Source: Leptolyngbya sp. BC1307 | GTDB taxonomy: Bacteria; Cyanobacteriota; Cyanobacteriia; Phormidesmidales; Phormidesmidaceae | Reading direction: 5' to 3' | Length of the DNA stretch: 64,000 nt | Assembly (NCBI RefSeq): GCF_002286735.1 | Contig: NZ_NRTA01000020.1 | Coordinates: 1 to 64,000 of the forward strand | Part shown: positions 35,044 to 63,248 of the stretch, piece by piece | Numbering within the stretch: the stretch's first letter is position 1 | Layout of the letters: every line of letters starts with the position of its first letter | The notes under the pieces: generated by a model | What the model was told of the DNA's origin: nothing | The model's database searches: none | What the model saw: the letters and a program-made list of their open reading frames with translations, nothing else | Translations under genes and position numbers: made by a program

Positions 35044-35231
35044 TATAGGCTACCTGTGTATTTACGCAGGCAACGAGTCCTAGTGCCTGTTTCAGGGCTG
35101 TTCTGACAGGTAAGCAGCTTTTTGGGTCTACTTTCTCCGAGTAGGGGCCAAAAAACTCCGTGTAAGCGTCCTTTAAATCATCAGACTTGGCTACACTACT
35201 GCTCTGAGTTTTGTGAAGTTAAATCTGGTGC

Positions 35232-38111: not shown

Positions 38112-38112
38112 G

Positions 38113-39186: not shown

Positions 39187-39241
39187 CCCATGCTCAGTTC
39201 TGCAGACGAGCCTGTAGTCGTACAAGTAGACTGTAGTCCCA

Positions 39242-40108: not shown

Positions 40109-40157
40109 TGAATTTTGAAGCCTGCATATTAAGTACATAGGCATAGCCCTCTAAAGG

Positions 40158-40286: not shown

Positions 40287-40448
40287 CGGGCTTGCACTTG
40301 AGAATGCCGGCCACATTCACCAGCCCCGCAATAGATCCCAGACTTTGTTCAATATGTTGAATTTGCTTGTCTACCGCCAGAGCGTCACTGACATCGACCT
40401 CGTAGGGATTAAATCGCTGCGGGCTCAGATCTGCTTTTACGGATGCTA

Positions 40449-41591: not shown

Positions 41592-41732
41592 TATCTTGTC
41601 TGATTGAATGTCGAAGCCTGCAACCGTCGCGCCAGCCAGCACCAGCGATCGCGCCACGGCTGCACCAATTCCCTGAGCGGCCCCTATGACCACAATAAGC
41701 TTGTCAGCAAAATTAAAAGACTGCATCTTCTT

Positions 41733-42068: not shown

Positions 42069-42117
42069 TTGCGGTTACCCTCATAGTCTTGTTGTGCTTG
42101 TTGTTTCCTAATCTTGT

Positions 42118-43401: not shown

Positions 43402-43459
43402 GAGCGAAGAGGGGATAAGTTTTTTATGGGGCTTTTCTGGCCCATCTTGAGAACTCTCT

Positions 43460-46057: not shown

Positions 46058-46132
46058 ACTAAATGGGAAAAATTCTTAATAACTTCATTGCGTTGATGAT
46101 AGTGGTCTGGCCTTACGCTTTTCTTTGTTAGC

Positions 46133-46163
46133 CGGACTTTTTTTCTGTCTCAAACGGACTTTT
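46133..46163 (-). promoter_or_regulatory. Direct repeat, candidate AraC-type operator 1
   Basis: On the minus strand AAAAGTCCG occurs twice with a 22-bp period (+ strand CGGACTTTT at 46133-46141 and 46155-46163), 76 bp upstream of the receptor start and just after the AraC gene stop. Similar pairs precede the other two receptors. Confidence 0.55.
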
Positions 46164-46180
46164 CGGTTTGCAACTGGGCG

Positions 46181-47122
46181 CTAGCGCTGCTGCATCTGGT
46201 AGGCTTTTGGCCCAATTTCAAAAGTGCGGCGAAAGGCCACGCTAAACGCTTCGGGGTTTCTGTAGCCGATAGTTTGAGCGACGCTCGCGATCGTGGCGCT
46301 GGGCATGAGCAGTAATCGCTGGGCCTGCTGCATTCGATAGCGGTGCAGGTAGCCAAACACCGTCGTCCCAAACACCTGACGAAACCCTTGTTTTAGCTTG
46401 CGGTCATTCAGTCCAATTTGATGAGCGAGATCTAGCAGGGTAGGCGGATTGGCAACCTGAGCGAGCAAAATATCTCGGGCATTAAAAATTCGATCAACTT
46501 CATCAGCTTTCAAGTCAGAGGAAGGCTGCTGCGAACCATTACTCGCCGATATTTGATCGAAATACAGGCTCATCAGTTCAATCGCCTTGCTCTCCAAATA
46601 CAGGCGTTGAGATAGCCCGCGATATGGACAGTTCAGCAGTTGTTGAACGGTTGAATTCATCACGGCGCTCATGCTGTGCGACTGAAAATAATCCGTCTGA
46701 TCGCACTGTGTCATCGCTACCTTCAGCGAATCCGGCAACTGTTCAATACTCTCCTGATTGCCGAGACCGATAGCATCAGGTTGAATATGCAGGTGGACTA
46801 ACCGCAGCGGTTTGGCGGCGTATTCTATGACTTGGCCCTGGCCCTTTGATATCCCCAGGCTTGCCTGCCTAGGCAGAAGCTGGACTGTCTGCTCAGCATG
46901 AACACTGCGCCTTTGAACTTGCCCTTCCAGGCAAAAACTCATTCCCAGCGTGGTTGTGTCATTCGAGCAGCCCTTCGTGATCACAGCCTTTTCGCGAAAA
47001 TTTAGCGTCTGAACTATCAGGCTTAGGCCGGGACGCAGCGGCCACCGCTGGCTAGACCCGTCATATTGTCTGAGCGCCGCGAGGGGCCCCTCGATCAGCG
47101 GAGCGACATGATTCGACAGCAT
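46181..47122 (-). CDS. AraC-family regulator (PchR/YbtA-like)
   Basis: 313 residues. The N-terminal ~190 residues are the siderophore-sensing type seen in PchR (CLEGQVQRRSVHAEQTVQLL, LPRQASLGISKGQG). The C-terminal ~100 carry two helix-turn-helix units: PPTLLDLAHQIGLNDRKLKQ, GFRQVFGTTVFGYLHRYRM, and TIASVAQTIGYRNPEAFSVA with FRRTFEIGPKAY. It should activate the adjacent receptor gene when bound to ferric siderophore. It is transcribed in the same direction as, and upstream of, the receptor at 46057. Confidence 0.9.
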   Translation of the reverse strand: MLSNHVAPLIEGPLAALRQYDGSSQRWPLRPGLSLIVQTLNFREKAVITKGCSNDTTTLGMSFCLEGQVQRRSVHAEQTVQLLPRQASLGISKGQGQVIEYAAKPLRLVHLHIQPDAIGLGNQESIEQLPDSLKVAMTQCDQTDYFQSHSMSAVMNSTVQQLLNCPYRGLSQRLYLESKAIELMSLYFDQISASNGSQQPSSDLKADEVDRIFNARDILLAQVANPPTLLDLAHQIGLNDRKLKQGFRQVFGTTVFGYLHRYRMQQAQRLLLMPSATIASVAQTIGYRNPEAFSVAFRRTFEIGPKAYQMQQR

Positions 47123-47218
47123 AAGCTAAACAAAGGTGTTTACCTCACTCTATTGCAATTAATTCCCAATATCAATCCTTTTCAATAGCTGCTGAACCAT
47201 CTGTTTGCAGCAGAATGA

Positions 47219-47324
47219 CCTTTTGATTGGGAATTAAACCCTCAAAGTCCGGCCAAATAGACTTCTGAAGGATCTATCCCTGACTCAGACTGTCACCCTG
47301 GCGGAACCTGGGTTGAACCATGCC
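47219..47324 (+). mobile_element. 129-bp MITE-like repeat, copy B (left end missing)
   Basis: From CTTTTGATTGGGAATTAAAC to GGGTTGAACCATGCC it matches copies at 40158 and 56716 almost base for base. The first ~24 bp with the left terminus are absent. It lies between the divergent AraC genes at 47122 and 47554. Confidence 0.75.
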
Positions 47325-47454
47325 TATATGCCTCTCAATATAGCTCAGTCGTTTAGCCAGATCCACCATCTCTGAATTAGCTTAACCATAAGCCTGGCTG
47401 ATTTTTAGAACTATTTTTAGAACTACTAGCTCTCGGCTGACCCATCATCATCAA

Positions 47455-47471
47455 TTGAGAAATGTTCTCAA
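47455..47471. promoter_or_regulatory. Palindrome upstream of AraC gene, Fur-like
   Basis: TTGAGAA-ATG-TTCTCAA is a perfect 7-bp inverted repeat, 83 bp before the start at 47554. It resembles the sites at 37052 and 61839 and scores about 11 of 15 against the Fur 7-1-7 box. It could be a Fur box or a regulator palindrome. Confidence 0.45.
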
Positions 47472-47553
47472 CTAAGGTAATATCCAGTCACGTCCTGATT
47501 GGCACAGCGCTCACAGATCTCACTAGCGCTGCCAAAACATTATCAAACGCATC

Positions 47554-48522
47554 ATGCCCATTACACTTTCGCAAGCAGACTATTGGGAACTCATCGACAC
47601 CTCTCCTGAGGCCGCGATCGCCCCTAACGGTGACTCAATTTGTCCGTTTCCTGCCCGCTTAGGCGAAGGCTATTATCGCTCGGTGCCGCTGAGCGACGGT
47701 CTAGACCTGGAGATTGTAGACTATCGCCTACAAGATGATGTAGCGGTGAGGTGTGGCGATCGCACCCACCCTCTGGAATATACCTTCGAGCAAACCAGCA
47801 CGGCTAGCAAAAGCACTCACCGCTATCACGTTTGCGGTAGTGGCTTAGCCCCTGAGGAGCTGTGGCATACGGCTGGTAGAGCGCGCATCGTCAGCGTCAA
47901 CGTTCATATTGAGCCGACGGCATTTCGGCAGTGGATTGGGGATACAGACGCCTTGCCTGCTGCGCTGAAGCCTTTACTGCGATCGCCCAAACAAGAATAT
48001 TACCAGCAGTCGAGTGTGCCCTCAGCGCCTATGCAGACGGTATTTCAGCAGATCTTGCACTGTCCCTATCAGGGATTCACCCGGCGGCTGTATTTGGAAG
48101 GCAAGCTTTGGGAAATGATGACGCTGATTTTAGCGGACATGGAAGAGGATGCGCCGCTGCTAGCCCCTGTGCTTAAGCCCGACGATGTGGAGCGAATTCA
48201 CTACGCGGGAGAAATTTTGCGATCGCAGCTGACTAATCCCCCTTCACTACTCGGACTGGCCCGGCAGGTACAGATCAATGATCACAAGCTAAAAGTCGGG
48301 TTTCGGCAGGTGTTTGGAACGACGGTGTTTGGCTACCTGCACGATTGTCGGATGGAGAAGTCGCGCCAGCTACTTGAATCGGGTTCAATCAGCGTAGGCG
48401 GGGCGGCACAGTCCGTCGGCTTTGCGAACCGCAGTCATTTTGCGACCGCCTTTCGCAAAAAATTTGGCATGAACCCTAGCCTTTATCGCAAGTGCAAACC
48501 CCCTGTTTTTCGGGCGAGCTAA
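47554..48522 (+). CDS. AraC-family regulator (PchR/YbtA-like)
   Basis: 322 residues starting MPITLSQADYWELID, very similar to the start of the regulator at 61792, which supports both starts. The C-terminal DNA-binding half reads PPSLLGLARQVQINDHKLKV, GFRQVFGTTVFGYLHDCRM, VGGAAQSVGFANRSHFATA and FRKKFGMNPSLYRK. The three AraC proteins of the window share the GFRQVFGTTVFG(Y/C)LH core and are paralogues. It lies 160 bp upstream of a receptor gene in the same direction, which it probably activates through the repeats at 48526-48567. Confidence 0.9.
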   Translation: MPITLSQADYWELIDTSPEAAIAPNGDSICPFPARLGEGYYRSVPLSDGLDLEIVDYRLQDDVAVRCGDRTHPLEYTFEQTSTASKSTHRYHVCGSGLAPEELWHTAGRARIVSVNVHIEPTAFRQWIGDTDALPAALKPLLRSPKQEYYQQSSVPSAPMQTVFQQILHCPYQGFTRRLYLEGKLWEMMTLILADMEEDAPLLAPVLKPDDVERIHYAGEILRSQLTNPPSLLGLARQVQINDHKLKVGFRQVFGTTVFGYLHDCRMEKSRQLLESGSISVGGAAQSVGFANRSHFATAFRKKFGMNPSLYRKCKPPVFRAS

Positions 48523-48525
48523 GGA

Positions 48526-48567
48526 AAAAGATCCGCCCGCCGTTCGCAAAAGATCCGCCCGCCGTTC
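48526..48567 (+). promoter_or_regulatory. 20-bp direct repeat, candidate AraC-type operator 2
   Basis: AAAAGATCCGCCCGCCGTTC occurs twice, identically, at 48526-48545 and 48548-48567 (22-bp period). It starts 3 bp after the AraC stop codon and ends 115 bp before the receptor start. A Fur box lies between it and the gene. Confidence 0.65.
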
Positions 48568-48607
48568 AAGCGTGGCTTCCGGAGTGTAAGGCCTTTCGGT
48601 AGATTTA

Positions 48608-48624
48608 TTGATAATCATTCTAAC
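48608..48624 (+). promoter_or_regulatory. Fur box upstream of receptor gene
   Basis: TTGATAATCATTCTAAC matches the 7-1-7 Fur consensus TGATAATnATTATCA at 13 of 15 positions and is 58 bp upstream of the receptor start at 48682. Confidence 0.65.
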
Positions 48625-48681
48625 TAACAAGCTGCTGTTGGCTGGTTTAGATGAGTGCCAAAACGTGTGTGGATGTGAATC

Positions 48682-51213
48682 ATGGCTCAGTTGAGAAGAG
48701 TATTCTGGTTAGGGAGTTTGTTTTCCGGGCTGCTGACTGTGGCGGCAGGTGCTGAATTAGTAAGTGCTGAATTAGTAAGTGCTGAATTAGTAAGTGCTGA
48801 ATCAGTAAGTGCTGAATCAGGACAGCGTCAGGGTAGCCTGATGCCTGTCACTTCTGTTTTGGCGCAGGGACTGAAGCAGATTACGGGTGTTCAAATAAAT
48901 GCGGTTGAAGGCAGTTTGACACTCACGCTAGAGACAATAGAGCCACTAGAAACTCCCGAAACCTCAGTGGTAGGCAACGCTCTGATAGTGGATATCCCCA
49001 ATGCGGTGCTGGTCTTGCCAGACGAGGATTCATTTGAGGAATTTGCACCAGCAGCAGGCATCGCCTTGGTGCAAGTCTCGGCGCTGTCTGGAGATCGGGT
49101 GCGGGTGGCCATTACCGGCACCGACACAGCGCCGACAGCCGAAGTCGCGAGTGGGACTGCGGGGCTAACGCTGAGCGTAGTGCCAGGAATTGCTCAAGCA
49201 AGTGAGGCTGACGATGCCCTGAGAATTGTGGTGACAGGTAATGAGGATGAAGGCTATAACCCTTCTAGCGCTAGCACAGCCACGGGCACGGATACGCCGC
49301 TGCGAGATATTCCTTTTTCAGTTCAAGTCATTCCGCGAGCAGTGATTGAAGATCGCAATGTCACTGAGCTAGGCGATGCTCTGGAAACGGCCGGAGGCGT
49401 TGTCGATGCTGGTGGCAGAGGAACCAGCATATTTGGCCCAGGTCTTCTACTCCGAGGATTTCCAGTCAATGATGGCATTTTTCGAGATGGCATTTCTACC
49501 TTTTCTCTGTCGCCTTTAAGTACTAATGATATTGAACAGGTTGAAGTTCTTAGAGGCCCAGCCTCTGTATTGTTCGGTCAAGGCGAACCGGGCGGTATTA
49601 TCAATTTAGTTTCTAAACAGCCTTTGAGTGAGCCCTTTTACTCGGCTGAGGTGACTGTTGGCAGCTTTGACACTTATCGCGGTGCGCTCGATTTATCTGG
49701 GCCGTTAGACGAGGCTGGAGACGTAAAATACCGGCTGAATTTATCTTATGAAAACGAAGGGAGCTTTCGAGATATCGTCAATGGTGAGAGATTGCTGATT
49801 TCTCCGATTGTTAGCTGGGACATTAGCCCCAGCACCTCATTAGACGTTTACGGGCAATATGCTTATGACCGCGAAACCATTGACGAGGGCATCCCGGCTT
49901 TAGGCGAGGGTATTGTTGATGTTCCTCGCAGTCGGTTTTTAGGCGAAAGATTTGGAGAATTTTCGCAAAATCAGTTTAGCCTTGGCTACCGGCTAGATCA
50001 TGAATTTGACGAAGACTGGTCAGTAAGACATGCCTTGCAGTACTTACAATATTCGCCCAGACGGTATGCGCCGTTGATAGACTCTTTTGATGAAGAAACG
50101 GGAGATGTAGAGCGCCTTGAGTATTTTGCTGGAGGCGAATATCAGCGAATTTTTACGAATGCCGAAGCGATTGGCCGGTTTGATACGGGTTCTGTTGAGC
50201 ATCAGCTTTTATTTGGAATCGAATATCGTCGTGATTCAGAGTCACCCGAGTTTCAGTTCTCCGATCTTTACACACCGATCAATGTGTTTGATCCGGTTTA
50301 TACAGGGATTCCTTATGAAATTGCGCCCACCTTCTTCCGCGATGATAACATCAACACCATCAGTCTCTATCTTCAAGATCAAATTGAAATTATCCCCGAG
50401 CTAAAACTTCTGGCGGGCATTCGCTATGACTCTGTAGACCAGTTCCGCACGACCCAAGAGTTAGACGGCCCTAGAAAAGAATTTGATCTGACTGACGAAG
50501 CCTTCACGCCCAGATTTGGGATTGTTTATCAGCCGATTGAACCTGTGTCACTTTATGCTTCTTACACCACTTCGTTTAATCCTGCTTTCGGGGCTAGTCT
50601 CAATAGTGACGGTTCATCGTTTGAGCCCGAGCGGGGGCGACAGTTTGAAGTCGGCATTAAAACAGATTTGTCAGAGCAGCTGAGCTTAAATGTCGCTGCG
50701 TTTGATATTCGCAGACAAAATGTACGAACTCCCGATCCGGACAATCCCCGCTTTTCTCTGCAAACCGGAGAAGTCGCCAGTCGCGGCATTGAGCTGAATT
50801 TGGGCGGAGAGATATTACCCGGTTGGAATATGACGGCGGCTTACACCTATTTAGATGCTTTTGTCAGTGAAGATACAAGAGACACTGTCGGTAACAAACT
50901 GGCGAATGTGCCGGACAATCAGTTCAGCCTATTCACAACCTATGAGGTTCAAGAGGGTGATCTAGCCGGACTAGGAGCCGGGTTAGGGCTTTTTTACGTG
51001 AGCGATCGCCAAGGAGATTTAGGCAATACCTTTACCCTGCCAAGCTACTTCCGTACCGATGCCTCCCTATTTTACAAGCGCGATAACTGGCGCACTCAGC
51101 TCAATATTGAAAACCTGTTCAACACCGAATATTTTGCCTCATCTGGCGGCAGGACAAGTGTTAATCCGGGAGCACCTTTTGGCATTTCGGCCTCTTTCTC
51201 AATCGATTTTTAA
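48682..51213 (+). CDS. TonB-dependent siderophore receptor with AMIN domain
   Basis: 843 residues. Signal peptide (VFWLGSLFSGLLTVAAGAEL), then a run of SAELV repeats, an AMIN domain (ITGVQINAVEGSLTLTLETI), the TonB-box-like LRIVVTGNEDE, plug motifs PFSVQVIPRAVIEDRNVTEL and IEQVEVLRGPASVLFGQGEP with GGIINLVSKQPL, and a barrel ending in ISASFSIDF. It is paralogous to the receptor at 43460. It is first in a plus-strand operon with the binding protein (19 bp later), DUF1636 and ABC genes, and is preceded by both a Fur box and AraC-type repeats. Confidence 0.92.
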   Translation: MAQLRRVFWLGSLFSGLLTVAAGAELVSAELVSAELVSAESVSAESGQRQGSLMPVTSVLAQGLKQITGVQINAVEGSLTLTLETIEPLETPETSVVGNALIVDIPNAVLVLPDEDSFEEFAPAAGIALVQVSALSGDRVRVAITGTDTAPTAEVASGTAGLTLSVVPGIAQASEADDALRIVVTGNEDEGYNPSSASTATGTDTPLRDIPFSVQVIPRAVIEDRNVTELGDALETAGGVVDAGGRGTSIFGPGLLLRGFPVNDGIFRDGISTFSLSPLSTNDIEQVEVLRGPASVLFGQGEPGGIINLVSKQPLSEPFYSAEVTVGSFDTYRGALDLSGPLDEAGDVKYRLNLSYENEGSFRDIVNGERLLISPIVSWDISPSTSLDVYGQYAYDRETIDEGIPALGEGIVDVPRSRFLGERFGEFSQNQFSLGYRLDHEFDEDWSVRHALQYLQYSPRRYAPLIDSFDEETGDVERLEYFAGGEYQRIFTNAEAIGRFDTGSVEHQLLFGIEYRRDSESPEFQFSDLYTPINVFDPVYTGIPYEIAPTFFRDDNINTISLYLQDQIEIIPELKLLAGIRYDSVDQFRTTQELDGPRKEFDLTDEAFTPRFGIVYQPIEPVSLYASYTTSFNPAFGASLNSDGSSFEPERGRQFEVGIKTDLSEQLSLNVAAFDIRRQNVRTPDPDNPRFSLQTGEVASRGIELNLGGEILPGWNMTAAYTYLDAFVSEDTRDTVGNKLANVPDNQFSLFTTYEVQEGDLAGLGAGLGLFYVSDRQGDLGNTFTLPSYFRTDASLFYKRDNWRTQLNIENLFNTEYFASSGGRTSVNPGAPFGISASFSIDF
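48751..48820 (+). repeat. 15-bp in-frame tandem repeat in receptor gene
   Basis: GCTGAATTAGTAAGT is repeated exactly three times, a fourth copy has one change and a fifth is partial. It encodes (AELVS)n right after the signal peptide. The copy number can change by slippage without breaking the frame. Confidence 0.85.
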
Positions 51214-51231
51214 AAACAACCTCTTCAAAGC

Positions 51232-52245
51232 ATGATGCATCTTTGGTTCAAACCTTTTCGGCTCATTCTCTTTTTTCTGCTAGGCACACTGATTTTCGGT
51301 AGCCTGTCTGCCTGCCAGCGTCAGAGTGCTGAGCCTATCTCTAGCAGACAGCCTACTGACTGTCATTGGGTAGATCATACAGCGGGAAGAACCTGCGTTC
51401 CCGACCAGATAGAGCGATTGGTGACTTTGGACTCAACATCTTTTGAGGCTGCGATCGCGCTTGGCCTAAAGCCTATGGGCACTGTAGCCTTCCAGGGGCT
51501 CGATACTTACCTAGCAGATCAGCTAGCTGATGTAGCAGACATTGGCCAGGCCGGCGAACCCAATATAGAAAGTATAGTAGCGCTCAAACCCGATTTTATC
51601 TTGGGGCTCGACCATCAGCAGTCAGCGTATGAACAGCTGTCTCAAATTGCCCCAACCGTACTTCTTCCATTTGACCACAGCGGCCAGTGGAAAGAAGTAT
51701 TCGCCAACTATAGCCAGGTGTTGAACCAGGAGACAATAGGGCAGCAGGTGATGGATGATTATCAGCGGCGAGCCCAAGCCTTTCAACAACAGCTAGCCAG
51801 TCAGTTGCCTTCAGATTTAGCCTCTTCTTTGCAGGTATCAGTCGTCCGCATGTATCCAGACAGCATCAATCTCTACTTCCGCGAGTCTTTTCCGGGCACC
51901 GTTTTAGACGATGTCTTGCTCGCTAGACCCACCGAGCAAGACATCAGTGCCGCAGAAGCAAAGAGCCGTTATCAAAATCCAATTCAAGCCTCCATCAGCT
52001 TAGAGCGGCTTGACTATGCCGATGGGGACGCTATATTTGTTTGGACGGCAGAAAACACCGCAGCCGCGAATCAAACCGCTCAAGAAAAATTGGCAGAACT
52101 TCAGGCCAATCCCCTGTGGCAAAGCTTAAAAGCTGTACAGGCAGACCGCGTTTATTTCGTTCCCAGCTATTGGATTGGCAGTGGCCCAATAGCCGCCAAT
52201 GCAATTTTAGATGATCTCTTCAAATATCTAATCAAAGAATCGTAA
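51232..52245 (+). CDS. Iron-siderophore substrate-binding lipoprotein
   Basis: 337 residues with a lipoprotein signal (LILFFLLGTLIFGSLSAC, lipobox LSAC). Class III binding-protein motifs follow: IERLVTLDSTSFEAAIALGL, DIGQAGEPNIESIVALKPDF and ILGLDHQQSAYEQLSQIAPT, later NPLWQSLKAVQADRVYFVPS. It would deliver ferric siderophore to a FecCD-type permease. The only permease pair in the window is at 37086-39186. It follows the receptor gene by 18 bp, so it is cotranscribed. Confidence 0.92.
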   Translation: MMHLWFKPFRLILFFLLGTLIFGSLSACQRQSAEPISSRQPTDCHWVDHTAGRTCVPDQIERLVTLDSTSFEAAIALGLKPMGTVAFQGLDTYLADQLADVADIGQAGEPNIESIVALKPDFILGLDHQQSAYEQLSQIAPTVLLPFDHSGQWKEVFANYSQVLNQETIGQQVMDDYQRRAQAFQQQLASQLPSDLASSLQVSVVRMYPDSINLYFRESFPGTVLDDVLLARPTEQDISAAEAKSRYQNPIQASISLERLDYADGDAIFVWTAENTAAANQTAQEKLAELQANPLWQSLKAVQADRVYFVPSYWIGSGPIAANAILDDLFKYLIKES

Positions 52246-52250
52246 CCACT

Positions 52251-52631
52251 ATGACTGAGAACGTTCTGTTTGTCTGCAAATCCTGTCAAATTAAACCTGA
52301 CAAAGACGCTGCCGAAGCGTCTTCAAAAACTGATCGCGAAGGCATTCAGCTATTGAACCAACTCCTAGCCTTATATCAAAATTGGGCACACCAGACAAAG
52401 CTTGAAATTCGTGAAGTGGGCTGTCTGTGGACTTGCGATCAGCCTTGCGCCGTTGCTTTTGCCAATCGCCACAAAGCCACTTACCTCTTCACCCAAGTTC
52501 TCCCATCCGAAGCCAGGGCCCTGCTTCACTTTGGAGAACTTTACATCGACAGCAAAGACGGCTCAATTCCCTGGAAACAGCTTCCAGAAGTACTCCAATC
52601 AGCAGAAATCGCTAGAATCCCACAGGTGTGA
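52251..52631 (+). CDS. DUF1636 metal-binding-like protein
   Basis: 126 residues with paired cysteines: LFVCKSCQIK near the N-terminus and EVGCLWTCDQPCAVAF in the middle, the pattern of the DUF1636 family, often described as predicted metal-binding and often found with cobalamin or siderophore genes. No signal peptide, so cytoplasmic. It starts 5 bp after the binding-protein stop. A role in iron release or cofactor handling is only inferred. Confidence 0.82.
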   Translation: MTENVLFVCKSCQIKPDKDAAEASSKTDREGIQLLNQLLALYQNWAHQTKLEIREVGCLWTCDQPCAVAFANRHKATYLFTQVLPSEARALLHFGELYIDSKDGSIPWKQLPEVLQSAEIARIPQV

Positions 52632-52830
52632 ATAGGGGCGATCGCTAAACCAAATTAAGGGACGTGCGGTAAAGTGCAGTACCGTTAGCGGCAAGAACTA
52701 CCCGCAAGTGATAAATGCGATCGCCTCATTAATTCCGTTGAGCGGTCAAGAAAATCCCTATAGGGCTCCTTTTAGTCCGGGCGCTGAGATAAAGTATCGG
52801 ACGTTGTGCTTCTATGGGCTGTTGTACGCT

Positions 52831-54639
52831 ATGGCGTCTGAATCTATCTGGCAGATTTTGGGACGACTGATTCGCTATGCGCCAAAGCTGTACTGCGCAG
52901 ATACCTTGCTGTGGCTCTTTATTGCCGGGCTGCCGGTTGTACCGGGTGTGCTCATCCGCGAATTTTTTAACAGTCTTGCTCAAGATGCTGAGCGATTCTC
53001 TTTTTCAGAATCACCCTGGATTTGGATCGCGCTGCTCCTGGCCGTCGGCCTTGCCAGAGTCGTTGCGATTTTTGCCGGACGCATTACCAAAACCCAACAC
53101 CGCTTTCTCATGAGCGCTCTGACTCGTCATAATCTGCTGTTAGCGCTGCTAAAGCGGCCCGGCGCAGAGCTTTCGACGAGTCAAAAAAGCTCTCCCGGTG
53201 AAGTTCTCAACTATTTTCGTGACGATGCCAGCCAGATAGAAGACACGGTTGCCAGTACCAATGAGATTTTTGCAGAGGCCGTATTTGCCATCGTTTCTAT
53301 GGCTCTCCTGCTGAGCGTAAACGCTACGATGACCTGGCTGGTCTTTACGCCGCTGTGTGCGATCGCCCTTCTCGTTCACCGGGCCGAATACCGCATCAAA
53401 CGCTACCGCCGCGCCAGCCGCCAAGCCACCGCGCAAGTCACCGGCCTGATTGCCGAAATGTTCACCGCAGTGCAGGCGATTAAAGTAGCCGGGACCGAAC
53501 GAGGAATGCTGCATGAGCTGAAAAGAAGAGGCGATCGCCGCCAGCAGTTGACTATCCGCGATCGTCTCTTTACCGCCCTTCTCAACTCAGGCTTTGAAGG
53601 CATTGTCAGCATTGGCACCGCCCTCATTCTGCTCCTCGCGGCCCAAAACCTACAGCCCTTAGACACTCAGAGTGGCCTCACTGTCGGCGACTTCGCCCTA
53701 TTTGTTTACTACCTCTCTTTCATCACCTACTTTCTGGCCTTTGCCGGTAGCTTTCTAGCCGTTACGCAGCAAAGTGAAGTCTCCTTCGAGCGCATGGCCG
53801 ATCTCACTAGCAGCGGTTCTTTTCATCAACCCGCACAAGATAAAGCACTTCACGCGCTTACGTCCTCGCACCCCCTCTACCTCCAACCTTTAGTAGGGTC
53901 TCTCCCACCGCTGCCGATCTCTGCTCAAACCATAACAGCTGATTCTCTCAGGGAACTGCGCGCGACGGGGCTGACTTATTGCTATCCTGACAGCGATTCT
54001 CTACAAGACGGCAAAGCCGAACGCGGCATTCACAATATCAGTTTCACCCTGAAAAAAGGCACCCTAACTGTGATCACAGGGGACGTAGGCGCAGGCAAAA
54101 CAACCTTACTGCGAGTACTCCTCGGCCTCCTATCTATGCAATCAGGCCACCTGTTTTGGAATGATCAACCTATTCACGATCCGGCTCTCTTTTTAGTGCC
54201 GCCCCGAGCCGCCTACACGCCACAAATTCCGCAGCTGTTCAGTGTGTCTTTGCGAGAAAATATGTTGTTGGGTTCGCCAGAGAAGGGAAGGTTAAAGAGG
54301 GCAATTGCTGCTGCCGCGTTTGACCGAGATCTCGCTGCCATGCCTGACGGCCTCGAAACCCTCATTGGCACCCGTGGCTTTCGGCTTTCAGGCGGGCAAA
54401 AGCAGCGGGTTGCCGCCGCTCGAATGCTGCTGCGTCAGCCTGAGCTACTGGTTTTTGACGATCTCTCCAGTGCCCTGGATATCAAAACCGAACAGCGACT
54501 GTGGGAAAGACTGTTTGATAGCCCGCTCACTCCTGGCTATTCGCCTACCTGCTTAGTGGTCTCTCACCGTCCGGCGCTGCTGGCGCGAGCCGACCAAATC
54601 ATAGCGCTAAAAGCAGGCCGAATGGTTTCATCCGGTTAG
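52831..54639 (+). CDS. Exporter-fold ABC half-transporter with degenerate Walker B
   Basis: About 602 residues from ATG 52831 (MASESIWQILGRLIRYAPKL); a GTG at 52708 would add a non-homologous leader. Six-helix membrane domain (~15-320), a loose linker, then Walker A GDVGAGKTT, canonical signature LSGGQKQR, Walker B LLVFDDLSSALD where Asp replaces the catalytic Glu, and H-loop LVVSHRPALL. Together with the half-transporter at 35232 (Glu present, signature LSAGQ) this gives one canonical and one degenerate ATP site, the usual asymmetry of heterodimers. It ends the receptor-SBP-DUF1636 operon. Role: siderophore export, or YbtPQ/IrtAB-like import. Confidence 0.85.
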   Translation: MASESIWQILGRLIRYAPKLYCADTLLWLFIAGLPVVPGVLIREFFNSLAQDAERFSFSESPWIWIALLLAVGLARVVAIFAGRITKTQHRFLMSALTRHNLLLALLKRPGAELSTSQKSSPGEVLNYFRDDASQIEDTVASTNEIFAEAVFAIVSMALLLSVNATMTWLVFTPLCAIALLVHRAEYRIKRYRRASRQATAQVTGLIAEMFTAVQAIKVAGTERGMLHELKRRGDRRQQLTIRDRLFTALLNSGFEGIVSIGTALILLLAAQNLQPLDTQSGLTVGDFALFVYYLSFITYFLAFAGSFLAVTQQSEVSFERMADLTSSGSFHQPAQDKALHALTSSHPLYLQPLVGSLPPLPISAQTITADSLRELRATGLTYCYPDSDSLQDGKAERGIHNISFTLKKGTLTVITGDVGAGKTTLLRVLLGLLSMQSGHLFWNDQPIHDPALFLVPPRAAYTPQIPQLFSVSLRENMLLGSPEKGRLKRAIAAAAFDRDLAAMPDGLETLIGTRGFRLSGGQKQRVAAARMLLRQPELLVFDDLSSALDIKTEQRLWERLFDSPLTPGYSPTCLVVSHRPALLARADQIIALKAGRMVSSG

Positions 54640-54738
54640 TAGCGATCATGGACATACTCAACTGAGTAAAATTATTTTTGTTAGATTCATAGGAAATAAA
54701 TTAAAAATCATGCTGACTCTTATTTGCACAGTGTTCGG

Positions 54739-55174
54739 ATGAGAGACATTGATCCGAGCTGGTGGATTTTTGCCTTGCTGTCGGCTTTTTTTGCGGCGCT
54801 AACCACTGTTTTTGCCAAGGTTGGCGTGGAGTCTGTTAACTCCAATCTGGCGACGGCGATTCGGACGGTGGTGATTTTAGCCGTGGCCTGGGGGATTGTG
54901 TGGGTCAAGGGCGAGTGGCAAGGATGGGCAGATATTTCTCACAGGTCAATGCTGTTTTTGGTGCTGTCAGGACTGGCAACAGGGCTATCCTGGCTGTGTT
55001 ATTTCAGAGCTTTGCAGCTTGGCCCTGCATCGCTAGTCGCGCCGATTGATAAGTCGGGACTGGTTTTAATTTTATTTAATTTTCTCGGCTGTGTTTTTAG
55101 GTGAGCCGTTTGGCGCAAAAGCTGTTTTAGGAACCGTCTTGATGCTTGCTGGAACGCTGGTTTTATTACAGTAG
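54739..55174 (+). pseudogene. EamA/DMT-family small membrane transporter, frameshifted
   Basis: From ATG 54739 (MRDIDPSWWIFALLSAFFAA) the product is a four- to five-helix EamA protein with the conserved WLCYFRALQLGPASLVAPID motif. The frame ends at TGA near 55104, but the C-terminus (VFLGEPFGAKAVLGTVLMLA, GTLVLLQ) continues in another frame to TAG 55172-55174. A one-base change near 55080 explains both. Intact members are ~140 residues. Either a pseudogene or a sequencing error. Confidence 0.8.
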
Positions 55175-55418
55175 GTCGGTCGGCTATGCGCGAAGATGCC
55201 GACACTCTCGCCGACACTCTCTAAGAGGTTTGTTTTACTATTCACCTAAAAACTATCAGGATTATTTATCATTTGTTTTTGAGGCGATGATAGCACAAGC
55301 GCTAAAATAAAAGGCTCTTCTCACACAAGATTCTCAATACGCCTGTGTTTATATATTTCTATTGATATTTGTTCCCAATTAGGATTAAATAATTAAAGAC
55401 ACTTCTGAATTGGTTTGT

Positions 55419-56108
55419 ATGTCTTTAACCGAAATTTTCTCGGCAGGCGGCGTGGTCATGTGGCCGCTGCTACTGTTTTCTGTGTGCGCGATCGCCGTCA
55501 CCGTCGAGCGCAGCTTATTCTGGTTTCGCATCAAAAAGCAAGAGCGCAAAATCGTTAAAGACGTTTTGCAAATTTACCAGGCCAATCCGCCTGCGGTTTT
55601 CCCGAAGCTCAAGCAAAATATCAATCTGCCTATCTCTCGCATCTTTTTAGAAGCGTTGGAGCTAGAAGGGGCCTCGCCTAATCAGTTCCGATTGGCCTTA
55701 GAGAGCGCGACGCAAGCTGAATTGCCTCTTTTAAAACGCTTCAATACCGTGTTTGAAACGATTGTTGCCGTCGCTCCTTTATTAGGCTTGCTCGGCACTA
55801 TTTTGGGGCTCATTCGTTCATTTGCCTCACTGAACTTGGGTGGATTGAATGGGGCGAATACGGGCCTAGTCACGGGCGGCATCAGTGAAGCGCTTGTCTC
55901 AACAGCAGCAGGCATGGTAGTCGCTATCTTTACGTTGTTATTTGCCAATTTGTTCCGGGGCTTTTACAAGCGGCAGATCGCTCTACTCCAGGAATACGGC
56001 GGTCAGCTAGAGATTTTGTACGAATGGCATCACCAGTCTACTTATCAATCTACTGATCAATATCAATCTACTGATCAAAAGGAGAAAGCATATGCAGATA
56101 ATCGATAA
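55419..56108 (+). CDS. exbB: ExbB-type proton channel (MotA/TolQ/ExbB family)
   Basis: About 229 residues from ATG 55419. Three membrane helices: VVMWPLLLFSVCAIAVTVER, AVAPLLGLLGTILGLIRSFA and GGISEALVSTAAGMVVAIFT with the conserved Thr/Ala-rich channel lining. It forms the proton channel that energises TonB. The C-terminal tail has a repeat encoded by TCTACTGATCAATATCAA-like units (QSTYQSTDQYQSTDQ). It overlaps exbD by 17 bp. The tonB partner is 20 kb away at 33199. AT-rich leader with loose Fur-like half-sites near 55261. Confidence 0.92.
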   Translation: MSLTEIFSAGGVVMWPLLLFSVCAIAVTVERSLFWFRIKKQERKIVKDVLQIYQANPPAVFPKLKQNINLPISRIFLEALELEGASPNQFRLALESATQAELPLLKRFNTVFETIVAVAPLLGLLGTILGLIRSFASLNLGGLNGANTGLVTGGISEALVSTAAGMVVAIFTLLFANLFRGFYKRQIALLQEYGGQLEILYEWHHQSTYQSTDQYQSTDQKEKAYADNR

Positions 56109-56541
56109 CGAAGCCGATGAGCCATTGGTAATTAATATTTTGCCAATGATTGATGTGATCTTCGCGATTTTGGCATTTTTCATTATTTCAACGTTGTTCT
56201 TAACCCGCGCAGAAGGCTTCTCGGTAGATTTGCCCGAGGCCGAAACTGCTCAGTCTCAGCAGGAAGCTTTCATTACCGTCACCATTGAGGGCAATGGCAA
56301 TATCTCAATCGATAAAAAGCCGGTTGCTTTGAACGAGTTGACCAAAACGGTGCAGGCGCAAGTCGGCGATCCTCCTGCGGAGGGGCTGCGCCATCGCACA
56401 GAAGCCTTATTGACCGTACAGGCCGATGAAACCATCGACTACGGCCAAGTGATTGCTGTGATGGATCAGCTACGGCGGGTGAAAGGCGCGAGCTTAGGGA
56501 TGGCAACGCAGCAGCCCGCTCAGGCAGGGGACTCTAAATAA
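56092..56541 (+). CDS. exbD: ExbD-type protein (biopolymer transport)
   Basis: 149 residues, ATG 56092 preceded by AAAGGAGAAAG inside the exbB end. One N-terminal membrane helix (INILPMIDVIFAILAFFIIS) carries the proton-accepting Asp of ExbD/TolR (MIDV). The periplasmic part has LLTVQADETIDYGQVIAVMD and LRRVKGASLGMATQ. Works with ExbB and TonB in the inner membrane. Confidence 0.93.
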   Translation: MQIIDNEADEPLVINILPMIDVIFAILAFFIISTLFLTRAEGFSVDLPEAETAQSQQEAFITVTIEGNGNISIDKKPVALNELTKTVQAQVGDPPAEGLRHRTEALLTVQADETIDYGQVIAVMDQLRRVKGASLGMATQQPAQAGDSK

Positions 56542-56715
56542 TCTCAATGAGGCGACAGTTCGAAACTGTTATAGTTTTCAGTCAAAGGTCAATCGCGATG
56601 GGTCATTCCCCGGTAAAACAGGCGTGGTTTAAAAACCGCCGATTTTGGGTAACACTCGCAGCACAAATTAGACCATCGTCGTTGAGGATCTAGCCTACTG
56701 ATTGCGTCAATTCCT

Positions 56716-56844
56716 GGCGTGGTTCAAGCGAGGGTAACACTTTTGATTGGGAATTAAAACCTCAAAGTCCGGCCAAATAGACTTCTGAAGGATCTATCCC
56801 TGACTCAGAGTGTCACCCTGGCGGAACCTGGGTTGAACCATGCC
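56716..56844 (+). mobile_element. 129-bp MITE-like repeat, copy C
   Basis: Complete copy from GGCGTGGTTCAAGCGAGGGT to GGGTTGAACCATGCC, nearly identical to copy A (40158-40286) and in the same orientation. It lies between exbD and the 3' end of the binding-protein gene at 56945, directly against an ISKra4-type end (56844-56873). Confidence 0.85.
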
Positions 56845-56873
56845 GGATTTCCCACACTTTTTTTCGCTCTCGA
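56844..56873 (+). repeat. Solo ISKra4-type terminal repeat
   Basis: GGATTTCCCACACTTTTTTT followed by CGCTCTCG matches the right end of the element at 13170-15301. It joins the MITE end without spacer. Confidence 0.6.
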
Positions 56874-56944
56874 TCATCAGGAAGCCAACAGTGCTGCCCC
56901 CCAGCAGCGTGCTAATGAAGCGAGCAGTACTAGGAGTTTTGTGC

Positions 56945-57907
56945 CTAGCTGGAAGCCTGTAGCAAATACTGCTCTACGTCGTCTAGCACCCAGTCTGCTG
57001 CCAAGGGACTATTGCCCGCCCCCCAGTAGTGGCCCACCGGATACACCTGGTTCTGTTGCACGGCCTTAAGTGACTGCCAAAGGGGGTCGGTTTTCAGGCG
57101 ATCTAACTCGGCCTCGGCGGCGGCGGCAATTTCTGGGGTCGCGCCAAAGGTGAAGAGCAAAATCACGTCTCCATCGGCCTGGGGCAGGGCCTCTTGGCTA
57201 ACCAGCTTTGAAAACGGCGGCTGATCTGGAGTACCTTCATTCTGAGATAGGGGTCGGGCAAATCCTAGATCGGCCAGAATAGAACCACCGAAGCAGTTCT
57301 TCAGATATAAACTGATCTGGCCCGACTGGTCCAGAACCCGTACCAGAGAGACCTGCATGGGCGAGGCGCTCACCTGTGCGTTCAGCGCCTCTACGCGCCG
57401 TTGGTACTGCTCTAGCACCGCCTCCGCCTGGGCCTCCAGGCCCAGCACCTGACCATGGAAGCGAAACGGGCGCTGCCAGTCGGCGGTGGTCTGCATATCA
57501 AAGGCAACAGTGGGGGCGATCGCCGACAGCTGGTCATAGGTGCCCTCTATGTCCCAGGAGGCCCCGATAATCAAATCGGGCTGTAGAACGGCCAGGGCCT
57601 CTAAATTGATCTGATCACTCTGCCCGAGTCGGGGTACTCCCGGCAGTCGCTCGGCCATCTGAGGTAGCAGATTGCTGGCTACCCCAGCGGGCGTCACCCC
57701 CAACGACAGCAGATTGCCCGCAGCGGTACCATCTAGCGCAACCACCCGGCTGGGCTGCATCGGCACACAGGTTTCCCCCAGCGGATGCGACACCATGCGA
57801 CAGTCAGAGGGCGCAGAATTGACTACGGGGGAGGGATAACATGCGATCGCACCGATCGCCACCAGTCCCGCGAGCAGTCCATGGAGTAGCCAGGTTTTGA
57901 GGGTCAT
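56945..57907 (-). CDS. Iron-siderophore substrate-binding lipoprotein
   Basis: 320 residues, lipoprotein signal (LLHGLLAGLVAIGAIAC). Class III binding-protein motifs: RVVALDGTAAGNLLSLGVTP, RLGQSDQINLEALAVLQPDL, IIGASWDIEGTYDQLSAIAP, and DPLWQSLKAVQQNQVYPVGH. It is paralogous to the protein at 51232 (shared DPLWQSLKAVQ.(N/D)(Q/R)VY). It follows the receptor at 57998-60649 by 90 bp on the minus strand, forming an AraC-receptor-binding protein unit. Higher G+C than the neighbours at 35-56 kb. Confidence 0.92.
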   Translation of the reverse strand: MTLKTWLLHGLLAGLVAIGAIACYPSPVVNSAPSDCRMVSHPLGETCVPMQPSRVVALDGTAAGNLLSLGVTPAGVASNLLPQMAERLPGVPRLGQSDQINLEALAVLQPDLIIGASWDIEGTYDQLSAIAPTVAFDMQTTADWQRPFRFHGQVLGLEAQAEAVLEQYQRRVEALNAQVSASPMQVSLVRVLDQSGQISLYLKNCFGGSILADLGFARPLSQNEGTPDQPPFSKLVSQEALPQADGDVILLFTFGATPEIAAAAEAELDRLKTDPLWQSLKAVQQNQVYPVGHYWGAGNSPLAADWVLDDVEQYLLQASS

Positions 57908-57997
57908 AAGTTATTTGGGAGAGTGGGTTTTTAGTTTTTAGTTCTGAGTGCTCAAGATAGCGGCTCGATTTGAAACTCAACATTCAAGACTCGCCTT

Positions 57998-60649
57998 CTA
58001 AAACGTCACCCGATACCCCACCGATACCCGTCGCCCAGAGCCAGCACTGTTGAAAGTGTTAGAAAACCCGGCAGTGCGTTGGGCATAGGCTGGGAAATAG
58101 AGGGTGTCGAAGAGGTTGTTTATCCCAATATCTAAGGTGCCCGGGCCGACATCAACGCTGCTGATCAAATCCACCACGACGTAGCTGTTAATCGGGCTGG
58201 GGTCAACCTCGGCCTCGAAGGCGGCGCTGCGGCTGCCCACGTACAGCAGTTGCAGGCGGTTGCGCCAGCCAGGCTGGGTTTCATTTTCTACATAGGCGGT
58301 GAGCTTGAGGGGTTGAATGCGGGCACTGCTGATGGCGGTAAATTGGCCAGTGTCCTCCAAATCTGCTTCGCCGCCAATCAGGCTAAGGGTGGTGCCTAGT
58401 TGCCAGGTGGGGCTGGGCTGCGCATCTAGGGTGGCCTCTAGGCCGTAGACCCGCTCCGGTGCCCGGACAAGAGCGTAGAGGCCGGTGTCGTCGAGGCCAG
58501 CGGCGTCATCAAACACAAGGCTAGAGCCTAGATCAGAAGTGTTATAAAATCCCGAAATCGAGGCCTGCACTGTATTCCAGTTGCCGCGAATGCCGACCTC
58601 GTATTCGTTGACTTTCTGGGGCTGGTTGACTTGGATGTCTGAATTTACTGTGAAGCCTGGGTCGGCAAAGCCCAGCACTACGCCAAAGTCGGGCACAGAA
58701 AAGCCCTGGGAAAAGTTGGCAAACAGGCTAATGTCGGGGGTGACATCGGCCACCGCACCCACGTTGAAAGCGGTGTCGCTGAAGTCGCGATCGCCCCCGG
58801 TAATTGGGTCGCCAAAAAAGGTGGCATAGTCCCCCACCGAAAAGCCAATGCGTTCGTGGCGTACGCCGCCCGATAGCTGCAACCAGTCAGTGCTCTGCCA
58901 CTGGAGCTGGGAGAATAGGCCCAGGCTGCTGAGGGTATAGGGCGGCACCAGCGGGCGCTGTTCAATCAGGCGGTTGACCCGGCCATTACTGGCGTCAAAG
59001 CTATCGGGGTCAAACAGATTGAAGGTATTGGCGGTGGTTTCGTGGTTGTAGTCTGCGCCCCACAGCAGGCTCAGGGAGTCGGATAGGGGGGTATTTAAAC
59101 CCAGGCGGCCACCCCAATTTTGCGAGTCTAGCTCCCCTTGGAAAATGCTAAAGGCGCGGGGGCGGCGATCGCGCGGATCGCTGCGGGTCACGTTGTCGCG
59201 GTAGTAGAGCTGGCTATCGAGGCTGCCGTTCAGCACATTGTTGTGGCGATAGCTGAGGTTTAGGATCAAATTGCGGTCGGCCTGGGGGCCACCTCCGTCC
59301 GGAAAGCTGAGCTGCCCGACCCTGAGGGCGCGGGCCTTGGGCTCTCCCGGTTCATCATCGACGCTAGGGTCAGAGATCACGTCGCTGTTGCGGCTTTCGC
59401 GATAGTAGTTGAGGGAGAACTGGAGTCGCTGGTTGTCATCAGGGCTGTAGCCCAGACGGGTGAGCAGCGCGAAATTTTCATTCTCATCGGTGCCCTGAAC
59501 AGTGGGAACGCGATCGCCCTCGCCATCAAACAGCGCCCCTGTATCAGACCGCGACAGCGAAGCCAGAATGTCAAACTGCTCATTCCTAGCCGAAACGGTT
59601 TGGCTGGCAAAATAGCCAAAACTCTCACTCTGCAAACTCCCCAAGGCAGCATTGACGCCGACTTCAGACGTGGCTGTAAAGCTCGCTTCATCAGGCTGCC
59701 GCGTAATGATGTTGATAATGCCGCCGGTGGCTCCACCCCCATAAATGGCGCTAGACCCTCGCACCACTTCAATGCGCTCAATCACGCTGGGGTCGAGGGT
59801 GCGTAGCTCGCGATCAAAGTCGCGGCTATTGACATTCTGGGGCACTCCATCGATTAAGATAGCCGCATCCCGGCCCCGCAGAGAAGCCGCCGTAAAGGCC
59901 CGATCCGACGACGGCGCGAGACCCGGCACTAATGCCCCCAAAACATCGTTCAAATCTCGACTGAGAGAAGTCTGCTGCTGAATCTCTTCTTGAGTAATCA
60001 CCGTGACTGACCGGGGAATCGTGGTCGTCTCCTCCTCACTACGGGTTGCCGTCACCACCACCTGAATGGCATCTTCGTTAGAGACTGCCGTTGCTGTGCC
60101 CCTAGCGACAGACAAAACTAAGCTCTGCGCCGCTGCATTAATTGCCGCAGTCGGGGGAGCCTCTGAGCCCGTGATCGCCACTCGCACGCCATCCCCTCGC
60201 GGTGCAACGCTCACCAGCGCAATGCCCTCAGCCGGGTTGGCGACCTGAAACTCACCGCCCTCTGGCAGCGCCAGCGTTGCATTGGCGATATCCACAATCA
60301 GCGCATTGCCCACCACCGACGACGACGCGGCTAGCTCTGCCGACGTTTCTAAAATTACCTCCACGCCATCGGCGGCGGCATTGAGCCTGACAGCCGTAAT
60401 TTGGGCGATCGCTGGGGCGATTTCAGCCAACCCTTCATCTACCGGGGTGGCCGGTTGCTCAACTTGACTGAGCAGAGAGGGTTTTGCCGCCCTTTCATTC
60501 TCCTGCGCTGTAGCTTCGCCACGGGGCACTTCGGTAACAATGCTTACCCCCTGACCTTCAAGAGCTGGCGCTGTCTCGGCCCAAGCTGGGCCCGCCATCA
60601 GCATGAGTACCCCTCCCGCTACCCAAGTCGAACGCTGTAGTTGATTCAT
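57998..60649 (-). CDS. TonB-dependent receptor with AMIN domain (FepA/BtuB-like plug)
   Basis: About 883 residues from ATG 60649 (MNQLQRSTWVAGGVLMLMAG signal peptide); a GTG at 60739 is less likely. AMIN domain (ITAVRLNAAADGVEVILETS), TonB box IQVVVTATRSEEE, plug SVTVITQEEIQQQTSLSRDL, SLRGRDAAILIDGVPQNVNS, IERIEVVRGSSAIYGGGATG, GIINIITRQPDE, and a barrel ending SVGYRVTF. The plug is of the FepA/CirA class, unlike the other two receptors, so it may prefer a different (catecholate) siderophore. It is preceded by an AraC gene and the repeat at 60772-60801. Confidence 0.92.
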   Translation of the reverse strand: MNQLQRSTWVAGGVLMLMAGPAWAETAPALEGQGVSIVTEVPRGEATAQENERAAKPSLLSQVEQPATPVDEGLAEIAPAIAQITAVRLNAAADGVEVILETSAELAASSSVVGNALIVDIANATLALPEGGEFQVANPAEGIALVSVAPRGDGVRVAITGSEAPPTAAINAAAQSLVLSVARGTATAVSNEDAIQVVVTATRSEEETTTIPRSVTVITQEEIQQQTSLSRDLNDVLGALVPGLAPSSDRAFTAASLRGRDAAILIDGVPQNVNSRDFDRELRTLDPSVIERIEVVRGSSAIYGGGATGGIINIITRQPDEASFTATSEVGVNAALGSLQSESFGYFASQTVSARNEQFDILASLSRSDTGALFDGEGDRVPTVQGTDENENFALLTRLGYSPDDNQRLQFSLNYYRESRNSDVISDPSVDDEPGEPKARALRVGQLSFPDGGGPQADRNLILNLSYRHNNVLNGSLDSQLYYRDNVTRSDPRDRRPRAFSIFQGELDSQNWGGRLGLNTPLSDSLSLLWGADYNHETTANTFNLFDPDSFDASNGRVNRLIEQRPLVPPYTLSSLGLFSQLQWQSTDWLQLSGGVRHERIGFSVGDYATFFGDPITGGDRDFSDTAFNVGAVADVTPDISLFANFSQGFSVPDFGVVLGFADPGFTVNSDIQVNQPQKVNEYEVGIRGNWNTVQASISGFYNTSDLGSSLVFDDAAGLDDTGLYALVRAPERVYGLEATLDAQPSPTWQLGTTLSLIGGEADLEDTGQFTAISSARIQPLKLTAYVENETQPGWRNRLQLLYVGSRSAAFEAEVDPSPINSYVVVDLISSVDVGPGTLDIGINNLFDTLYFPAYAQRTAGFSNTFNSAGSGRRVSVGYRVTF

Positions 60650-60771
60650 CACTCCACCCACCAAAATATTAGGGCTAGCAGGCGTTTTGCCTGCATACCC
60701 CAATTGCAACTCACTTGCAAGAAGCTTACTGGATGGCACTAGCCTATAGACAATCGCTTTGGTCAGCAGCA

Positions 60772-60801
60772 GGAATTTTTTGATCCAAACCCGGAATTTT
60801 T
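60772..60801 (-). promoter_or_regulatory. Direct repeat, candidate AraC-type operator 3
   Basis: On the minus strand AAAAATTCC occurs twice with a 21-bp period (+ strand GGAATTTTT at 60772-60780 and 60793-60801). It overlaps the stop codon of the AraC gene and lies 123 bp upstream of the receptor start. Confidence 0.5.
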
Positions 60802-61792: not shown

Positions 61793-61838
61793 GGTTGCAA
61801 GAATGTTAATGTCTTTGAATCCCAATTCTGAACCTTAT

Positions 61839-63245: not shown

Positions 63246-63248
63246 GTG
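62497..63248 (+). pseudogene. Group II intron reverse transcriptase/maturase, truncated
   Basis: About 250 residues. N-terminal RT0 region (FRRALFRLQRRVFKAVRAGD, LLAIRQVTQLNAGKRTPGVD) followed by palm motifs IPIPKKNGKIRILKVPTIAD, HARSYGFRPGRSAHDA, IELDIEKCFDRI and GTPQGGVVSPLLANVALNGI. The frame then enters antisense transposase sequence; the YADD catalytic block, domain X and endonuclease are missing. Typical of cyanobacterial group II intron proteins, which are ~550-600 residues. Confidence 0.88.

Follow-up and report, generated by a model that had tools for sequence, protein, structure and literature searches.

Three direct repeats, each made of two 20-bp units, are present in the first 64,000 nucleotides of contig NZ_NRTA01000020.1 of Leptolyngbya sp. 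BC1307 (this whole stretch is called the window below), and from sequence comparison they are very probably the operators of cyanobacterial PchR-like (IutR-like) activators of the AraC family. Each repeat lies between an AraC-family gene and its TonB-dependent receptor gene and on the strand of both (Table 1), at the three places where a reading of the DNA letters by themselves (the sequence-only reading) had put it. The operator role which that reading proposed is now strongly supported by the conservation of the repeat, by its fixed distance to the -10 box and by the covariation of its bases with the recognition helices of the adjacent regulator; all of these, and the repeat itself, are computed results. 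All three regulators match PF12833 (HTH_18) and PF00165 above cut-off, i.e., they carry a C-terminal DNA-binding domain with two helix-turn-helix (HTH) motifs of the AraC/XylS type, and none of their NCBIfam matches came from a model named PchR. The regulator gene adjoins and is in line with a TonB-dependent receptor gene in all three cases, and the genome has three strong regulator matches (next best E 1.8e-13) and three TonB receptors, all of them paired within the window.

Table 1. Regulators, receptors, putative operators and promoter boxes of the window; residue numbers here and throughout follow the regulator frame 60800..61825.
Feature	Position	Strand	Details
AraC-family regulator 1	46181..47122	-	R aligns with residue 265, P with 314
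AraC-family regulator 2	47554..48522	+	H aligns with residue 265, R with 314
AraC-family regulator 3	60800..61825	-	F265, R314
TonB-dependent receptor 1	43460..46057	-	AMIN, Plug and barrel; TonB-siderophor above cut-off
TonB-dependent receptor 2	48682..51213	+	AMIN, Plug and barrel; TonB-siderophor above cut-off
TonB-dependent receptor 3	57998..60739, probable ATG 60649	-	AMIN, Plug and barrel; best NCBIfam match RhtA, below cut-off
Putative operator site 1, for receptor 43460-46057	46123..46164	-	unit 1 46145-46164 GAAAAGTCCGTTTGAGACAG, unit 2 46123-46142 AAAAAGTCCGGCTAACAAAG; period 22
-10 box of site 1, TATCAT	46096..46101	-	21 bp after unit 2
Putative operator site 2, for receptor 48682-51213	48526..48567	+	identical 20-bp units AAAAGATCCGCCCGCCGTTC at 48526-48545 and 48548-48567; period 22
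-10 box of site 2, TAGATT	48600..48605	+	32 bp after unit 2; -35-like CTTCCG 48576-48581
Putative operator site 3, for receptor 57998-60739	60761..60801	-	unit 1 60782-60801, unit 2 60761-60780; period 21
-10 box of site 3, TAAGCT	60723..60728	-	32 bp after unit 2
Candidate fourth operator, before ABC exporter 52831-54639	52728..52768	+	units 52728-52747 and 52749-52768, period 21; genome-model E 0.045
-10 box of fourth operator, TAAAGT	52790-52795	+	21 bp after unit 2
ABC exporter-type transporter behind fourth operator	52831..54639	+	
Weak candidate fifth operator, before ABC exporter 35232-36971	35130..35170	+	ACTTTCTCCGAGTAGGGGCC / AAAAACTCCGTGTAAGCGTC, period 21
TACACT box of candidate fifth operator	35192-35197	+	21 bp after unit 2
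ABC exporter-type transporter behind candidate fifth operator	35232..36971	+	80% and 65% identical to two relatives with strong operators

The unit had been described as AAAA(G/A)(A/T)TCC(G); its pairing holds, and the short 9-mer gives way to a bipartite unit of about 20 bp with a second, variable box. Likewise, the interval 46133-46163 first given for site 1 covers only the core of the two full units listed in Table 1. The regulator-near copy of site 1 is GAAAAGTCC in the AAAAnnTCC register, one base off the exact pattern, so AAAANNTCC-N9-16-AAAANNTCC catches just two of the three sites. This pattern occurs twice in the window, 0.00 being expected from shuffles, and three times across the 4.92-Mb genome (once for the reversed control pattern); the third occurrence, on contig C36, is a short tandem repeat and was ruled out as an operator. 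With profiles that omit the window sites, each site being scored by its own left-out profile, the top four distinct places of the window were site 1 (34.4), the 52728 site, site 3 (21.3) and site 2 (14.4). A genome-wide operator model, built from 54 sites of other genomes and none of the window, and with 150 of 1,207 first-look candidates scored, ranked 46124-46163 first in the own genome (E 2.5e-6) and 60768-60801 second (E 0.012), followed by a place on contig C30 (E 0.038) and by 52731-52765 (E 0.045). The C30 place was not accepted as an operator, loci L191 and L245 holding nothing above 14 with the paired profile.

The repeat is conserved among relatives of the regulators. The best 80 of at least 512 matched loci contain 61 gaps of less than 600 bp in which the regulator reads into a receptor gene, and an iterative two-unit profile, seeded with typed units, was fitted to these 61 gaps together with the window's three. 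It yielded a unit of 20 bp, AAAAAnTCCGTTTnnnRAAn, occurring twice at a period of 21-22 bp. Pairs scoring above 15 were found in 56 of the 61 gaps and at all three window sites, the profile having been fitted to those very gaps; in a leave-one-out scan from which similar sites were also omitted, the gap was the best match of its locus over both strands in 54 of 61 cases (1.1 expected) and outscored its own opposite strand in 59. None of 80 shuffled loci gave a site above 18. A larger set was composed of sampled genomes, the first 80 loci and the window (its three regulators counted in), where 36 of the 386 genomes of a phylum-wide sample, the own genome included, matched at E 1e-40 and at most five candidates were scored per listed genome. 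From 181 regulator frames above 140 bits, nine repeats of the last 200 residues were removed, which left 172, and 171 had enough downstream DNA. Between 60 bp before the regulator stop and 800 bp past it, a pair above 15 stood on the coding strand downstream of 118 of these 171 distinct PchR-like regulators, and of 1 of 171 in the reverse-strand control, with a profile previously fitted on part of the loci; for 15 of the other 53 regulators, the fetched DNA has a pair above 18 at another place in the locus. Enrichment of the spaced motif upstream of related receptors, the check that the sequence-only reading had proposed, was found.

The period was 21 or 22 bp in 108 of the 118 sites, 20 in nine and 23 in one, over a searched range of 19-23. 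This agrees with the earlier description of two direct half-sites about two helical turns apart as far as spacing is concerned, and each unit is better described as a two-box site that would fit one DNA-binding domain with its two HTH motifs. Within sites the two units agree at base 6 (0.93 vs 0.29 in permuted pairs) and at bases 16-20 (0.69-0.93 vs 0.32-0.48), more weakly yet still above chance at bases 9 and 11-15, and not above chance at bases 1-4 and 10.

The sites also keep a fixed distance to the promoter. A set of 60 sites was made up of 56 from relatives, the window's three and the one at 52728; here the start of TAnnnT lies 21/22 bp past unit 2 in 36 counts and 32/33 bp past it in 24, the mean being 1.8 per offset. 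In the larger set, which includes most of these 60, 113 of the 118 sites have a TAnnnT -10 box 21/22 or 31-33 bp past unit 2 (at 21/22 alone in 53, one turn further in 56, at both in four), and five have it at neither distance. Unit 2 of a near-class site reaches with its end into the -35 position; in the far class a CTTCA-like element occupies this position, so that the operator lies one helical turn further upstream; a downstream unit at the -35 position is true of the near class only. The near class of the window consists of site 1 and the two exporter sites, and the far class of sites 48526 and 60761. Past the -10 box, the Fur-box-like stretch TGA[GTC]AA[TAG] was found in 50 of 113 cases and in 9.0 in shuffles; at the site 2 promoter a Fur-box-like stretch falls at about 48606-48624, 3' of the -10 box.

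The strongest evidence for the adjacent regulator as the reader of the repeat is the covariation of residue 265 with base 6 and of residue 314 with base 20, and both links hold under tree control. For the 118 pairs with a site above 15, each of the 20 operator positions was compared by corrected mutual information with 135 columns taken from the last 150 residues of the regulator. The top z scores were 18.5 for residue 265 and base 6, 13.4 for residue 314 and base 20 and 12.1 for residue 266 and base 6, followed by 316-base 19 (8.2), 318-base 20 (7.8), 315-base 20 (7.5), and 318-base 19 and 269-base 6 (6.2 each). All eight of these pairs involve recognition-helix residues; the ninth, 311-base 20 (4.7), involves a residue just ahead of the second helix, and some non-helix columns reach 3.0-3.6. 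A single-sequence structure model, weak as a whole and better in this domain (mean pLDDT 46.2; about 58-88 by block over residues 261-330), was used for the C-terminal helix boundaries only. In this model the predicted helices 264-275 and 314-325 contain the covarying residues, and because each follows a short helix (253-260 and 302-308, respectively), these residues would be early positions of the two recognition helices. The order is consistent, the first HTH pairing with the 5' box and the second with the 3' box. In both units of a site, R265 goes with G at base 6 in 30 of 36 cases, C265 with T in 40 of 43 and Y265 with A in 18 of 24, while F265 goes with A in 6 of 9 and with T/T in 2 of 9; at base 20, C accompanies R314 in 43 of 45 cases, G accompanies P314 in 26 of 37 and A accompanies L314 in all 14.

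Relatedness was controlled with phylogenetically independent pairs taken from a tree built without the recognition-helix columns, and the p values of these 10 + 10 residue-base tests are uncorrected for the number of tests. R265 was linked to G6 in 10/10 pairs for unit 1 (p 0.002) and 9/10 for unit 2 (p 0.004), and R314 to C20 in averages of 7.8/8 for unit 2 (median p 0.008) and 7.0/8 for unit 1 (0.016); C265-T6 gave about 6/8 (median p 0.03, up to 0.22). The crossed controls were not significant (R265-base 20, median p 0.25; R314-base 6, median p 1), nor were two column pairs outside the helices. Y265-A6, H265-C6, P314-G20, A316-A19 and S318-G20 leaned in the right direction without reaching significance in the same test. 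When regulators at least 65% identical in the domain were left out, the code ranked the own site of a regulator at a mean percentile of 0.929 (median 0.974), which is somewhat flattering since the scoring positions had been picked on the full first set.

The rules of the first set were applied to a second set, drawn from two more samples in which 52 of 291 and 14 of 42 genomes, respectively, matched at E 1e-60, part of the listed matches being fetched. It comprised 86 loci and 76 regulators unused before, 73 of them with enough DNA. A site above 15 stood downstream of 44 of the 73 and none on the reverse strand; novelty was filtered by identity of the last 120 residues only, and 10 of the 44 are still at least 80% identical to a first-set domain. 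The -10 box was at 21/22 or 31-33 bp in 37 of the 44 sites. With residues that had no rule counted as wrong (K, N, S and gaps at 265; A, C, F and gaps at 314), and with a permutation that ignores kinship, the rules predicted base 6 correctly in 63 of 88 units (permuted mean 29.0, maximum 48 in 5000 permutations) and base 20 in 65 of 88 (permuted mean 38.9, maximum 56). Among the 76 units with a rule, 63 and 65 were right, respectively. The rule held for R314-C in 50/50 units, for C265-T in 39/44, for R265-G in 9/10 and for L314-A in 4/6, and K265, for which there was no prior rule, stood with G in 6/6 units. The two units agreed at 0.86 for base 6 and 0.93 for base 20.

A mechanism can be proposed from these results, in which binding, activation, the inducer and Fur control are inferred. 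Each 20-bp unit would be a complete site for one DNA-binding domain, whose first recognition helix would read the 5' box AAAAAnTCCG (base 6 variable) and whose second would read the 3' box at bases 16-20. Tandem units 21-22 bp apart would place two regulator subunits on one face of the DNA just 5' of the promoter. Upon iron need, and probably with a ferric siderophore on its N-terminal domain, the regulator would activate the receptor gene and, in the cluster, the ABC exporters; a Fur-like repressor bound at the box just downstream may close the promoter when iron is plentiful. The E. coli AraC protein binds direct half-sites about 21 bp apart at araI1-I2, each through two HTH motifs, with the downstream one at the -35 position. 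The repeats of this study resemble that arrangement in spacing and in the two-HTH reading, and near-class operators share the placement at -35; they differ in bases, ligand and regulon, and about half of the PchR-like promoters are one turn further out. PchR of Pseudomonas aeruginosa is an AraC-family siderophore regulator that adjoins its own TonB receptor gene and has a PchR box; the regulators of the window resemble it in the adjacency of regulator and receptor genes.

In Synechocystis sp. PCC 6803, IutR1-3 (Sll1205, Sll1408 and Slr1489, formerly PchR-like) are activators that bind receptor promoters (PMC11221513), and their genes are mentioned under older names as Fur-controlled regulators (PMC5318462, PMC12282138). 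The compared text of PMC11221513 describes no operator architecture or residue-base code, and its three ChIP motifs, given in a figure, lie outside this comparison. Anabaena PCC 7120 has the gene pairs Alr2587/2588, Alr2591/2592 and Alr2595/2596 of AraC and receptor (PMC3610870), so that here, as in the window, AraC-family and ferrichrome-type receptor genes are paired more than once in a single genome; the genes are named there, with no binding site mentioned in the part compared. A metallophore cluster containing an AraC gene was also described (PMC12210259). Protein-DNA covariation codes concentrated in the recognition helix were reported for the MerR family and other factors (PMC5045206); our code resembles them in the mutual-information evidence and in this concentration, and differs from them in that two helices read two boxes, AraC being absent from the main text of that paper. 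The operator is of a known kind, and the residue-base code and the two-class geometry were not found in the published accounts as far as they were compared, the ChIP motifs of PMC11221513 aside. With this code, the AraC family would join those bacterial families for which covariation has given a recognition code. Many siderophore receptors are present per cyanobacterium, and the matching of receptors with regulators is a natural question. An operator recognisable from sequence, together with promoter geometry and code, would allow regulators to be assigned to receptors and exporters across genomes.

Several results weigh against the operator reading or against the code. For 38 of the 171 PchR-like regulators (e.g., L060, L088, L114, L171), the score cut was not reached anywhere in the fetched locus; many of these regulators are among the more distant ones, and they may use another motif. 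In the second set, 29 of 73 regulators had no downstream site above 15. Site 2 was absent from the seven matches of the genome-wide model among the 150 of 1,207 candidates scored, and the weak fifth candidate scored 12.9 or 6.7 in two scans, values that shuffled windows also give (mean maximum 6.3, largest 16.2). Regulator 60800 has F265, which goes with A/A in most cases, but its own site 60761 carries T, and the code gives this regulator 7.5 at the 48526 site vs 3.4 at its own. The kinship disregarded by the permutation also counts here, and in the 34 second-set pairs that stay below 80% identity with any first-set domain, base 6 and base 20 were correctly predicted in 43/68 and 45/68 units. 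P314 (G 4 and A 4 of 8 units), Q314 (A 7 and C 5 of 12) and Y265 (A 10, T 4 and C 2 of 16) were weakly predicted in the second set, where unit-unit agreement was just 0.64-0.73 at bases 16-19.

Other origins of the repeat are far less probable than an operator of the adjacent regulator. Some factor other than the AraC protein, perhaps Fur or a global iron regulator, might bind the repeat, with the AraC gene as a mere neighbour, and the frequency of Fur-box-like stretches at these promoters (50/113, given above) is in keeping with this. But the Fur-like stretch is a separate element 3' of the -10 box, for which reason Fur was rejected as the reader of the repeat, and the eight top residue-base pairs all fall in the recognition helices of the adjacent AraC protein while the crossed controls were not significant; we regard such a neighbour-only relation as very improbable. 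Still harder to credit is a neutral tandem duplication or slippage in intergenic DNA, which would account for the units of site 48526 being identical over 20 bp and for the weak agreement of units at bases 9 and 11-15. Plain duplication would not yield an agreement that peaks at bases 6 and 16-20 and is nil at bases 1, 2, 3, 4 and 10, and on this concentration at certain bases it was rejected; it also leaves the -10 spacing and the covariation unexplained, and the 80 shuffled loci gave no site above 18.

If the repeats are operators of this family, the regulators might still form one interchangeable pool with full cross-talk. Gel shifts in Synechocystis showed IutR1 bound to three receptor promoters and IutR2 to two, i.e., some sharing between paralogues (PMC11221513), and in the window the code fails to separate the two sites of regulators 47554 and 60800. 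However, changes of specificity residues go along with changes of operator bases across the tree, and the code strongly disfavours binding of regulator 46181 to the other two receptor sites, which score -27 and -32 where its own scores 7.2; conversely, regulators 60800 and 47554 score -19 and -20 at site 46123-46164. We therefore consider a full pool unlikely. A modular two-helix code, in which residue 265 sets base 6 and residue 314 sets base 20, the two changing independently, is more likely than not; it would keep paralogous siderophore regulators in one genome apart and make their targets predictable from the protein sequence by itself. The very similar recognition helices once attributed to the three regulators are not borne out, since they carry R, H and F at the key position of the first helix and P, R and R at that of the second. 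With these differences, regulator 46181 is predicted to be unlikely to share sites with the other two, and 47554 and 60800 might share theirs, which narrows the general cross-talk that had been suggested to this last pair. Operator and code together permit direct tests of paralogue insulation. One cyanobacterial genome (G289), with 21 strong regulator matches and 17 operator-model matches at E <=0.1, is a natural test of such insulation.

Operators of this type also seem to precede exporter genes. The 52728 site, which the sequence-only reading did not contain, is a good candidate: it ends 62 bp 5' of the probable exporter ATG, and its score of 24.8 is above all 40 shuffled windows. Because the score of the fifth candidate falls inside the shuffled range, the case for it is made from its relatives and its geometry. 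In other genomes most sites precede receptor-like frames, N termini being judged by eye, and ABC exporters stand behind the operator in four Pfam-checked cases, pointing to siderophore or related export within the regulon. Operators preceding exporters elsewhere were L084:1020, L226:1526, L229:1512 (minus strand) and L231:1555.

The receptors are surrounded by an uptake cluster at 33199-43512 and 51232-57907 of the window. TonB is encoded at 33199-34683, two permeases and an ATPase that are FecCDE-like by eye at 37086-40108, and an MFS transporter at 42118-43512, for which the nearest models are AmpG and RhtX/FptX, below cut-off. The cluster also encodes two substrate-binding proteins, DUF1636, ExbB and ExbD (55410-56541), and between the ABC exporter and ExbB a 126-aa frame (54724-55104) looks by eye like a truncated EamA-type transporter. 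No regulator match at E 1e-40 was found in the two sampled genomes of the same family. Transposase-like fragments, recognised by eye, lie within the cluster at 40453-41510, and a reverse transcriptase and a transposase-like frame flank it at 62497-63998; these fragments in and beside the cluster suggest a mobile history.

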